From contig NZ_CP070950.1 of NCBI RefSeq assembly GCF_017084525.1, positions 992,001 to 1,056,000 on the forward strand: 64,000 nt of DNA, read 5' to 3'. Both the position numbers and the translations under genes were made by a program. Below, piece by piece: positions 512 through 62,387 of this stretch. Under the pieces are notes generated by a model. The model was not told the DNA's origin, did no database searches, and was given only the letters and a program-made list of their open reading frames with translations. The number at the start of each line of letters is the position of its first letter. Within the stretch, counting starts at the first letter, position 1. This DNA comes from Conexibacter sp. SYSU D00693. Its GTDB lineage: Bacteria > Actinomycetota > Thermoleophilia > Solirubrobacterales > Solirubrobacteraceae.

Positions 512-1233
512 CGCGGCGGCAGGCCGAAGCCGAAGCGCTGGAGGACCGCCCGCCCGCGGGCGCCGAGCAGTGCGCGCACATAGGCCTTCGCGCCCTCGCC
601 GTCGCCGCCGCGACGCCGGACGATGCAGCCCTGGTAGCGGACGGTCGGCTGCGCCCGGCGCGGCAGCGCGATGGCGTCGGTCCGCCCCGCCGCGGCGCGG
701 GCGTCGGTCGCGTAGACGAAGCCCGCGTCCGCGCTGCGCAGCGCGACCTTCGCGACGACCCCGCTCACCGCCGCCTCCTGGGAGACGGTGTTGGTCCGCA
801 GGACCGAGCTGAGGCGCAGGCGCTGGAGCACCTGCCGCGTGTAGTCGCCGATCGGGACGCCGCGGCTGCCGACCGCCAGGCGACGCCGTCCGCTGCGCAG
901 CCCGAAGACCGACCGCACCTTCGCCGGGTCTCCCTGCGGCACGAGGAGCACGAGGCGGTTGGTCGCGAAGGTCAGCGGCCGGGTGCAGCGGCCCGCGCGG
1001 TAGAGGGCGAGCGGCTCCCTCGGGCTGGCGGCGAGGAGGACGTCGGCCGGCGCGCCCCGCTCGACCTGGCGCTGGAGCGTGTTGGAGCCGGCGAAGCTGT
1101 AGCGGGGACCGTCGTCGAACGCCGGCAGCGCCTCGCGCAGGGAGGCGGCGGCGTAGACGGTCAGCGCGTGCGCGGGCGCCGCGAGGCCGAGCGCGAGCAG
1201 GAGGGTCAGGAGCGCCGTGCGGCGGACGGGCAC
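508..1233 (-). CDS. modA: Molybdate ABC transporter substrate-binding protein ModA
   Basis: Periplasmic binding protein that delivers molybdate or tungstate to the ModB permease; 241 residues, close to the family norm. It starts with a signal peptide (hydrophobic core at residues 7-22, cut near AHA-LT). The mature start TVYAAASLREALPAF is the ModA hallmark, followed by the FAGSNTLQRQVERGAPADV ligand-loop region. The start is GTG at 1233. A TACGCT -10 box at 1246-1241 sits 7 nt upstream, so a leaderless transcript is possible in addition to read-through from the upstream regulator gene. No second cysteine-rich or lipoprotein motif is seen. Confidence 0.93.
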   Translation of the reverse strand: MPVRRTALLTLLLALGLAAPAHALTVYAAASLREALPAFDDGPRYSFAGSNTLQRQVERGAPADVLLAASPREPLALYRAGRCTRPLTFATNRLVLLVPQGDPAKVRSVFGLRSGRRRLAVGSRGVPIGDYTRQVLQRLRLSSVLRTNTVSQEAAVSGVVAKVALRSADAGFVYATDARAAAGRTDAIALPRRAQPTVRYQGCIVRRRGGDGEGAKAYVRALLGARGRAVLQRFGFGLPPR

Positions 1234-59552: not shown

Positions 59553-59659
59553 CGGGCTGCGCCCTACCCGCCGCGACCGCGGTTCCACGCGCTGCGGCGT
59601 CCACCCGCCGGACCAGGCGCTCAGGCGCGCGCCCCGAACTGCCGATCTGCGCGGGTGGG

Positions 59660-61114
59660 ATGGTCTCCGACGCGCTGCGCTGCAAGCTCGCCTCCGACGA
59701 CCGGCTCGCCGAGCTGGCCGCCTCCGGCTGCCCGGGCGCGGCCGCGGCCGTCTGCGAGCGCTTCCGCGAGCCGCTGGCCCGCTACTGCGGCGCCCTGACC
59801 GGCCATCCCGAGGACGCCCGGGACGCCACCCAGGCGGCGCTGGAGCGCGCGCTGCGCGCCCTGGCGGCCGGCGAGGCCCCCCGCGCCCTGCGCCCGTGGC
59901 TCTACCGCATCGCCCACAACGCGGCGATGGACGTCATCCGCCGCCGCCGGCCCGACCAGCCGCTGGACGGCATCGAGCACCTGGTGGCCGACGGTCCGGG
60001 CGAGCCCGCCGCCCGCGAGCGCCTCACCGAGGTCCTGGGGGACCTGCGCGCCCTGCCCGAGCGCCAGCGCGGCGCCCTGCTGCTGCGCGAGCTCGCCGGC
60101 CTGGACTACGACGAGCTCGCTGGCGCCCTTGGCACGTCCTCCCAGGCCGCCCGCCAGTCCGTCTTCGAGGCCCGCGCCGGCCTCCTCGCCGCTCAGGACG
60201 GCCGGGCGACCGGCTGCGACAGCGTCCGGCGCACGCTGTCCGACGGCGACCGCCGGCGCCTGCGCCGCCGCGAGATCCGCGCGCACCTCCAGGGCTGCGG
60301 CGGCTGCCGGGACTTCGCGCGGGGCATCCGCGCCCGCCGCCGCGCGCTCGCCCTGCTGCCGGTGCCGTGGGCAGCCACCGCCGCGGCCGGCGCGCTGAGC
60401 ACCGGCGGCGTCGTCGCCGCACCGCTGGGCTGGACGACGGCCAAGGGCATCGCCGCCGTGGCCGCCGCGGTGACCGCCACGGGCTCGGTCGCGACCGTCG
60501 AGCGCCTCCAGCACGACCCCGCACCCCGCGCGCCGAAGGCCGCCGCCGCGCCGGCCCCTGACCGCGCCGACGCTGCGCTGGCCAAGGCGACCGCTCCGTC
60601 GGCCGCCGTCGTCCGCGCCGCCCGCAGCGCGACCGCCGCGCCGACGTCGGCCAAGGCCGTCCGGGCCGTGCGCCGCCGTTCGGGCGCCGTGGTCGTCGAG
60701 TCCGCCGCCGGGGCGGCCGCCAGCGTCAGGACCGAGCGCCGCCGGGTCGTCGCGCGCGAGCAGGAGGTCGCCCGCCGCAAGGCCGAGCTCGAGACCCCGG
60801 CCGCGACGACGACCACCACCGTCGCGGCGCCGTCCGCGCCGGCGCGTCCGGCCACCGGCTCCCCGGGCCGCGAGGCCGTCCGCCAGGCCATGCGCGAGGC
60901 CACGCGCGTCGCCGTGCAGGACGCCCAGCAGCGCACCCAGCAGGCCGCCGACGCGGCCCGCACCGCGCACCAGCAGGCCCTCTCCCAGCTTCCCGAGCGC
61001 CTCCAGCAGGCGATCACGCAGACCCAGGAGTCCGTGCGCCAGTCGGTCGACCAGACCGTCACCGGCATCACGCAGGCCCTCGACGGCATCCTCGCGCCGA
61101 CGGACCCGCGGTGA
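59660..61114 (+). CDS. ECF sigma factor fused to a zinc anti-sigma domain and a membrane-spanning tail
   Basis: A 484-residue protein. Sigma region 2 is at about 28-97 (PEDARDATQAALERALRALA; RPWLYRIAHNAAMDVIRRRR) and region 4 at about 122-175 (LPERQRGALLLRELAGLDYD; TSSQAARQSVFEARAGL). A zf-HC2/ZAS-type segment follows at 186-225 with C186 and the motif H209-x3-C213-x2-C216. Hydrophobic stretches at about 234-280 should form one or two membrane helices. The remaining about 200 residues are Ala/Arg/Gln-rich helices that would lie outside. One polypeptide thus has sigma, anti-sigma and sensor parts. ATG at 59660. A hairpin and a c-di-GMP riboswitch follow. Confidence 0.85.
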   Translation: MVSDALRCKLASDDRLAELAASGCPGAAAAVCERFREPLARYCGALTGHPEDARDATQAALERALRALAAGEAPRALRPWLYRIAHNAAMDVIRRRRPDQPLDGIEHLVADGPGEPAARERLTEVLGDLRALPERQRGALLLRELAGLDYDELAGALGTSSQAARQSVFEARAGLLAAQDGRATGCDSVRRTLSDGDRRRLRRREIRAHLQGCGGCRDFARGIRARRRALALLPVPWAATAAAGALSTGGVVAAPLGWTTAKGIAAVAAAVTATGSVATVERLQHDPAPRAPKAAAAPAPDRADAALAKATAPSAAVVRAARSATAAPTSAKAVRAVRRRSGAVVVESAAGAAASVRTERRRVVAREQEVARRKAELETPAATTTTTVAAPSAPARPATGSPGREAVRQAMREATRVAVQDAQQRTQQAADAARTAHQQALSQLPERLQQAITQTQESVRQSVDQTVTGITQALDGILAPTDPR

Positions 61115-61151
61115 GCGCCAACGCGCCAACACGCAACAACTCCCTGACCCA

Positions 61152-61166
61152 GGGGCACCGTGCCCC
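61152..61166 (+). terminator. Short hairpin after the sigma-factor gene
   Basis: GGGGCA/TGCCCC stem around CCG, 37 nt after the stop and 35 nt before the riboswitch core. It may terminate the sigma transcript. Confidence 0.45.
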
Positions 61167-61200
61167 GTCCTACCCCCAGAGGCACCACGACCTCGGACCA

Positions 61201-61276
61201 AGGCAAACCCGCCGCGAGGCGGGGGCGCAAAACCAGGGACCTCAGCGCACCGTGCGCCGAGGCCGCCCAGTTGCCC
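61201..61276 (+). ncRNA. Cyclic di-GMP-I (GEMM-I) riboswitch
   Basis: All conserved blocks of the GEMM-I aptamer are present in order: GGCAAACC (61202-61209), a P1b hairpin CCGCC-GCGA-GGCGG with a GNRA tetraloop, CGCAAAACC, GGGACCT, a variable hairpin CGCAC-CGTG-CGCCG region, then AGGCCGCC and the closing TTGCC (61271-61275) that pairs with GGCAA. The Shine-Dalgarno TAGGAGG starts immediately after P1 (61277-61283), 9 nt from the ATG at 61293. c-di-GMP binding therefore probably controls translation of the secreted protein. TCCTA at 61168-61172 could pair with the Shine-Dalgarno in the unbound state. Confidence 0.88.
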
Positions 61277-61292
61277 TAGGAGGCCCAACCGC

Positions 61293-62387
61293 ATGACCCG
61301 TGCCCTGCGCGCGGCGGCGCTCACGCTCGCCGTCGCCGCCCTCAGCCCCGCCGCCGCCCAGGCGGCGACGCCCCCGTCCACCGGGGTCGCCAAGACCGTC
61401 AAGCAGGCCGAGAGGCTCTCGGACCGCGCCGTCGCGCTCGCCGAGCAGAACAAGGACGTCCGCGCCGCCAAGACGCTGAAGGACGCCCGCAAGGCCGCCA
61501 CGAAGGCCTCGCGCGACGCCCGCCGCCTCGCCCTGCGCGCCACCACCGACGCCAAGCGCCTGGACGCCTCGGGCGCCCTGTCGCTCGTCGCCGCCCGCTT
61601 CGGCGAGGACGTCCAGCAGTGGGCGACCGTCCTCGACGAGCTCTCCGGCGCCGCCCAGGCCTCCTTCGCCCAGGCGCTGCCCTCCGCGATCGCCTCCCAC
61701 GACGCAGTCATGACCGCCCTGCAGGGCGTCGTCGCCAAGCTCCCGGTCGAGCAGCGCGCCGCCGTCGAGCAGGTCGTCGCCGGGCTCGTCGCCCAGTGGC
61801 CGGCCCAGCTCGAGGCGCTGACCACCGCCATCGGTGAGGTCCCGACGAAGATCGCGACCATCGTCAAGTCGGCCCTGAACTCGGCCACGACGACGCTGAC
61901 CGAGGTCATCGGCTCGATCGACACGATCACCGCGACCCTCCCCGCCCCCGCGCAGGAGCTCATCGGCGGCGTCCTCGGCGCCGTCACCCCGCTGCTCGCC
62001 TCGGTCACCGAGCTGGTCGACGAGGTCAGCGGCGTGGTCTCGACGCAGCTCACGAAGGTCCTCGCCATGGTCAAGGACCTCGTCGGCGGCCTGATCCCGT
62101 CCTTCGGGAACATCGCCGGCGGCGGCGCGGGCTCGGACGACGAGGGCGACACCGCCTCCACCGTCCCGGGTCTGGGCTCGATCCTCGACCTGGTCGGCGG
62201 CCTGATCCCGGGCGTCGGCTCGGGCAGCGGGTCGGGCGCGACCCTCCCGTCGCTGGGCTCGCTGCCGGGCGTCGGCGCCATCACCGGCGTCATCAAGGAC
62301 GTCGTCGGCGGCCTGCCGATCGTCGGCGACCTCTTCGACGGCCTCCTCGGCAACCTCTTCGGCGGCTCGAAGGCCACGAAGTCCTAG
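61293..62387 (+). CDS. Secreted helical protein under c-di-GMP riboswitch control
   Basis: A 364-residue exported protein. The signal peptide is ALRAAALTLAVAALSPAAAQ then AAT. The mature part begins with Lys/Ala-rich helices (QAERLSDRAVALAEQNKDVR; ARKAATKASRDARRLALRAT), continues with long amphipathic helices (LPVEQRAAVEQVVAGLVAQW; TTTLTEVIGSIDTITATLPA), and ends in Gly/Leu-rich repeats (DLVGGLIPSFGNIAG, DLVGGLIPGVGSGSG, DVVGGLPIVGDLFDGLLGNL). No cysteine and no catalytic motif are present. A surface or matrix role linked to the c-di-GMP lifestyle switch is inferred from the riboswitch. Confidence 0.85.
   Translation: MTRALRAAALTLAVAALSPAAAQAATPPSTGVAKTVKQAERLSDRAVALAEQNKDVRAAKTLKDARKAATKASRDARRLALRATTDAKRLDASGALSLVAARFGEDVQQWATVLDELSGAAQASFAQALPSAIASHDAVMTALQGVVAKLPVEQRAAVEQVVAGLVAQWPAQLEALTTAIGEVPTKIATIVKSALNSATTTLTEVIGSIDTITATLPAPAQELIGGVLGAVTPLLASVTELVDEVSGVVSTQLTKVLAMVKDLVGGLIPSFGNIAGGGAGSDDEGDTASTVPGLGSILDLVGGLIPGVGSGSGSGATLPSLGSLPGVGAITGVIKDVVGGLPIVGDLFDGLLGNLFGGSKATKS

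Follow-up and report, generated by a model that had tools for sequence, protein, structure and literature searches.

A canonical c-di-GMP-I riboswitch with probable control over the translation of a secreted alpha-helical protein in Conexibacter sp. SYSU D00693

GEMM-Ib pockets carry A20, and an A at position 20 is a known change of the cGAMP-selective GEMM-Ib riboswitches. The name of the c-di-GMP-I-GGC model (RF03167) is said to originate with Weinberg 2017, and this name, together with the model consensus CGCGAA, would imply a G at position 47. In the Vc2 aptamer, c-di-GMP is contacted by G20, A47, and C92 (PMC4744006), A47 being stacked between both guanines of the ligand (PMC9049102). Among regulatory proteins, the sigma factors of ECF48, ECF52, and ECF53 join their ECF domains to a fused zinc finger and a membrane extension (PMC8999054).

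Here, we compare with these systems a locus of Conexibacter sp. SYSU D00693 that lies in a window of 64,000 nucleotides (the whole stretch of DNA analyzed, whose positions are used as coordinates). Computation shows an aptamer with a canonical pocket, an overlap between its P1 helix and the Shine-Dalgarno sequence, a conserved linkage to the following gene, and domains for the synthesis and breakdown of c-di-GMP. Our main reading, to which we give a probability of about 0.86, is that a canonical c-di-GMP-I riboswitch controls the translation of a secreted alpha-helical protein. The riboswitch is a further copy of the known, ordinary GEMM-I class, so the kind of RNA is not new. The novelty lies in the target family, in how strongly it is linked to the aptamer, and in the sigma factor neighbor; a limited open-literature search found no paper that describes such a pairing. 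The locus comprises the following features.

59660 to 61114, plus strand: ECF sigma factor gene, 484 aa, the next gene upstream of the aptamer-target unit
61144 to 61173, plus strand: candidate promoter CTGAC-N17-CGTCCTAC, resembling, without an exact match, a motif of sister loci
61179 to 61194, plus strand: possible competing hairpin, GAGG (61179-61182) with CCUC (61191-61194)
61193 to 61279, plus strand: c-di-GMP-I (GEMM-I) riboswitch aptamer, from covariance matches, covariation, and invariant pocket columns in a 37-sequence alignment
61202 to 61209, plus strand: block GGCAAACC, followed by hairpin P2
61226 to 61232, plus strand: block GCGCAAA, with the A47 equivalent at 61229, followed by P3
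61270 to 61276, plus strand: block GUUGCCC, with the C92 equivalent at 61274
61278 to 61283, plus strand: Shine-Dalgarno sequence AGGAGG, into which the 3' edge of P1 extends
61293 to 62387, plus strand: target gene, directly 3' of the aptamer, for a predicted secreted protein of 364 aa
Target residues about 1 to 25: signal peptide
Target residues 30 to 267: helical-repeat core (AlphaFold2)
Target residues 268 to 364: disordered Gly/Leu/Ser tail (AlphaFold2)

The cmscan search of the window placed a GEMM-I aptamer at 61193-61279 on the plus strand, where two models of one clan (CL00126) compete for the same site. RF03167 scored 59.3 bits against a gathering score of 59 (E 1.9e-11 in the 64-kb window), and RF01051 scored 53.9 bits against 35 (E 1.5e-9, with the whole 4.43-Mb genome as the search space). 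Across 37 aligned aptamers from the class, standard pairs filled 93.0% of the cells of 22 named pairs, and 13 of these pairs changed on both sides (4/6 in P2 and 8/12 in P3). The covariation score reached 0.442 versus 0.186 in shuffles, and the signal was lost when the partner was shifted by 1 to 3 columns. P1 was the least paired helix (67.6%), as expected for a switching helix. The aptamer at 61193-61279 is confirmed as real, beyond chance. The first-pass annotation had described the GEMM-I consensus blocks and proposed an RF01051 search, with a strong match expected, and a covariation check among relatives; all of the blocks, with P2 and P3 between them, were located, and both checks came out in favor of its call. 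The span it had given, 61201-61292, overlaps the aptamer but omits the first 8 nt and extends through the spacer to the start codon at 61293. P1, which it had described as abutting the Shine-Dalgarno, strictly overlaps it, the last model position (61279) falling inside 61278-61283.

This overlap of the aptamer end with the Shine-Dalgarno sequence points to translational control. The aptamer ends 13 nt before the start codon, a gap too short for a terminator. About a third of the aptamers of the class likewise end within some 28 nt of a start codon, leaving room only for translational control. Thus, control of the target by the aptamer at the level of translation is likely.

The direction of this control was explored by in silico folding. 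With nearest-neighbor folding, which ignores ligand and tertiary contacts, the mean unpaired fraction of the window Shine-Dalgarno was 0.68 when the RNA folded freely and 0.24 when the aptamer was imposed, and in the latter fold CCU 61191-61193 was paired with AGG 61278-61280. Since this CCU would occupy part of the Shine-Dalgarno once the aptamer is bound, an OFF direction, in which c-di-GMP lowers translation, is tentatively predicted for the window, not across the family. An OFF switch conserved in the family is unsupported, as constrained folding gave lower Shine-Dalgarno accessibility upon aptamer formation in only 11 of the 18 leaders of the family (p 0.77 by the Wilcoxon test). Compared with shuffles, base pairing between the 5' flank and the Shine-Dalgarno showed a family mean z of -0.91, a modest excess, and a z of +0.14 for the window. 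The opposite sign, with c-di-GMP binding freeing the Shine-Dalgarno, would fit a protein of adhesion or biofilm formation, and we hold it to be possible but less likely than not. It agrees with the 7 of 18 leaders in which the Shine-Dalgarno is predicted to be more open once the aptamer forms (e.g., G081a, G278, and G224a) and with Vc1, an ON element that precedes gbpA of V. cholerae, whose product is a secreted adhesin (PMC4744006), but it runs against the loss of accessibility predicted for the window itself.

The bases of CCUC 61191-61194 can alternatively pair with Shine-Dalgarno bases or, in the possible hairpin listed above, with GAGG. A comparable GAGGC/GCCUC hairpin (P0) occurs in roughly every second leader of the family, and it was rejected as a general competing element on account of this partial distribution.

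The reading of a translational switch on the target gene draws further support from relatives. A query with the single protein retrieved 24 target-family loci, spread over 12 of the 299 class genomes. An aptamer stands directly upstream in 18 of them, several of which are paralogous aptamer-gene cassettes within one genome. A family-profile search extended the relatives to 38 of the 232 genomes of the order and, in the phylum, to 8 of 198 genomes, where most matches were weak. In held-out loci, which had not been used to define the link, the aptamer stood directly upstream in 11 of 17, bringing all examined loci to 29 of 41; a detectable aptamer in this place was absent from 6/24 and 6/17 family loci, respectively. 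This linkage supports the c-di-GMP control of the target that had been claimed from the single sequence. A fossil or unrelated leader element, with the target either expressed constitutively or governed by the sigma factor alone, would account for the leaders with a decayed or missing aptamer (G212a, G210b, G175c, and G224d), in two of which (G212a and G210b) the sigma gene is still next door. However, the pocket and helices of the window copy are intact, and conservation over 29 loci at about 21 to 35% protein identity implies selection, which makes such a fossil very improbable.

Several leaders deserve a separate description. Those of G224d (L086), G175c (L083), and G210b (L082) contain decayed-looking aptamers in which the pocket is lost and a GCCCAGUUGCC-like tail and the Shine-Dalgarno are kept. 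In L114, near-identical aptamers at 997-1090 and 2171-2265 are separated by 1.2 kb, and both lie a short way ahead of a start codon, an arrangement that suggests a recent cassette duplication. A cobalamin riboswitch (L276, 733-923, minus strand) lies on the same strand as one family member and downstream of it.

Regarding the ligand, the window pocket has G61202, A61229, and C61274 at the positions of G20, A47, and C92, three columns that are invariant in the 37-sequence alignment. With this canonical pocket, c-di-GMP is the ligand to be expected. That the element is a genuine c-di-GMP-I-GGC variant binding some different ligand is very improbable, and this reading was rejected: RF03167 is ahead of RF01051 by E-value, barely at its gathering score, but the window reads CGCAAA, and cmscan flags the A47 position as a mismatch to RF03167. 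The base that is G in the model is A in the window, in 140 of 140 aptamers parsed in the class (excluding 18 regex matches without A47 that lay away from covariance matches, in unrelated sequence), and in 28 of 28 parsed among the best RF03167 matches of the phylum; stacking between the c-di-GMP guanines is the very role described for A47 (PMC9049102). RF03167 matched 119 of the 299 class genomes, 94 of them above the cut-off, and A47, the canonical base, was present in every copy read. Among the RF03167 aptamers read in the class and phylum (L231 to L259 and the class loci), none had G47, and a scan of genome contigs found no exact G47 aptamer.

Because the diagnostic base is A and not G, the GEMM-I assignment is better than the top label of Rfam, and the class named by the first-pass annotation was right. 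Judged from the bases read, the label c-di-GMP-I-GGC misleads for this aptamer, and RF03167 appears to catch ordinary actinobacterial GEMM-I aptamers through lineage features. Pipelines that keep only the top-scoring model, as in PMC9943018, would mislabel aptamers of this phylum as GGC variants with an altered ligand. Also very improbable is a cGAMP (GEMM-Ib) riboswitch, which has the same architecture and which few changes suffice to produce (PMC7266159), but whose reading was rejected because position 20 of the window is G61202, not A. Elsewhere in the class, the aptamers of L125 (about 997-1080, minus strand) and L139 (about 998-1080, minus strand) read AAAGCAAACC, that is, A20, which would make their downstream genes candidates for regulation by cGAMP.

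The target protein, which starts with MTRALRAAALTLAVAALSPAAAQAA, had been described as a signal-peptide protein with amphipathic helices and Gly/Leu repeats, of unknown function. This description is supported. AlphaFold2 gave an all-helical model for residues 30-267 (pLDDT above 80 from residue 30 to about 230) and a disordered tail for 268-364, and no Pfam or NCBIfam family matched above the cut-off; DUF7217, Baculo_PEP_C, and a collagen-preface domain were considered and rejected, all being sub-threshold. Foldseek with the model reached a best E of 6.7e-3, and VIA-align matches were mainly designed helical repeats, plus retromer and STAT helical bundles. Such matches to a predicted structure would indicate a helical repeat only and are no evidence of function, so a functional assignment from structure was rejected. 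The relatives share 21 to 35% identity with the target, and a scan of genome contigs found no close ones.

Export of the product to the cell envelope or the extracellular matrix is most likely, and nearly all other genes behind aptamers of the class encode exported products. By labels that, except for the target family, come from sequence inspection and not from a family search, the genes downstream of class aptamers comprise 28 type IV prepilins, 21 secreted glycosidase-like proteins, 17 members of the target family, 15 subtilase-like proteins, and smaller secreted groups. Export thus appears to be their common theme, and the target may be a matrix or surface factor. The window genome contains 16 GGDEF, 6 EAL, and 3 PilZ matches. 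Its only other aptamer, at C1:426774-426861, was outside the first-pass account and has now been found before two type IV prepilin genes, both of which carry GFTLIELLVV motifs; the prepilin identity was checked for the window genome.

The upstream gene, which the earlier account had not seen as part of a conserved unit, proved to be a conserved neighbor. It encodes an ECF sigma factor (Pfam Sigma70_r2, 3.5e-11, and Sigma70_r4_2, 3.9e-9) with a zinc-finger anti-sigma-like motif, HLQGCGGC, and a long, variable C-terminal extension, in which zf-HC2 remained below the cut-off (E 0.024). A weakly hydrophobic stretch lies at about aa 232-280, with a best 21-aa hydropathy of 1.47. In 12 other large loci, an orthologue with 45 to 55% identity directly precedes the target-family gene; the two loci with a decayed or absent aptamer (G212a and G210b) are among them.

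The promoter-like motif [CGT]T[GT]AC-N16-[CGA]GTT precedes 9 of the 18 units of aptamer and target and 7 of the 13 sigma genes (shuffle mean, 0.03 each), in a test that is partly circular since the motif was drawn by eye from the same sequences. It stands before both genes within the same genome in G121, G081, G230, G175, and G103, and the exact 16-nt spacing with recurrence before both genes would be hard to obtain by chance. The shared motif was seen in a sister lineage; the exact form was not found at the window's own promoters or in the window's lineage, and a shared sigma promoter was rejected there. Leaders of the window's lineage (G210a, G071, G278, G175a, G230a, and G011) have, like the window at about 61117-61130, a conserved ACGCGCCAA-like motif some 80 to 86 nt before GGC, which may be an activator site or belong to a sigma promoter that has diverged. 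A CGTTGCCGATA box ends about 5 to 15 nt before the sigma start codon (e.g., in L217, L121, L220, and L219), which suggests that the sigma mRNAs are leaderless or near-leaderless. An open frame of 918 codons runs antisense through the sigma and target genes (59621-62377, minus strand) and is probably only a compositional effect at this G+C.

In the proposed mechanism, transcription would start a short distance 5' of the aptamer, at a predicted site of about 61176 to 61182, perhaps under the neighboring ECF sigma factor, and c-di-GMP would then stabilize P1. In the window, the bound fold would pair CCU 61191-61193 with the Shine-Dalgarno and lower translation, and the product, when made, would be exported to the envelope or extracellular matrix. 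A broader reading, tentative and somewhat short of even odds, is a two-key envelope module, in which a surface-sensing, membrane-tethered ECF sigma factor transcribes itself and its neighbor and the riboswitch separately gates the neighbor's translation. If true, the neighbor would be an undescribed exported helical-repeat family with Gly- or Pro-rich tails, cassette-expanded in one actinobacterial order. The RNA apparently marks an undescribed c-di-GMP-controlled surface-protein module. An unnamed family of secreted proteins, present in 38 of the order's 232 genomes, would be connected with c-di-GMP as well as with an ECF sigma factor of the fused type, a concrete entry point into a poorly studied actinobacterial lineage.

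Compared with known systems, the window aptamer shares with RF01051 the fold, the covarying helices, the G20/A47/C92 pocket, and the placement in a 5' leader, but it scores below RF03167 owing to lineage features, and its P1 overlaps the Shine-Dalgarno. It shares with RF03167 the best covariance score and the overall sequence blocks, without the G that the model consensus has at the A47 position. The neighboring sigma factor can be likened, by description, to ECF48, ECF52, and ECF53, with ECF domains followed by a candidate zinc-finger-like motif, a weakly hydrophobic stretch, and a long C-terminal extension, whereas no carbohydrate-binding domain was found in it and its neighbor is a putatively riboswitch-controlled secreted protein. 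Vc1 upstream of gbpA is likewise a class-I aptamer controlling one secreted protein; however, it lies more than 100 nt from the start codon, acts as an ON element, and serves an unrelated chitin-binding protein. The type IV prepilin genes behind c-di-GMP-I aptamers of the class, one case being in the window genome, have in common with the target gene the aptamer family and an exported product, but their leaders mostly leave 60 to 120 nt between aptamer and start codon, which indicates another expression platform.
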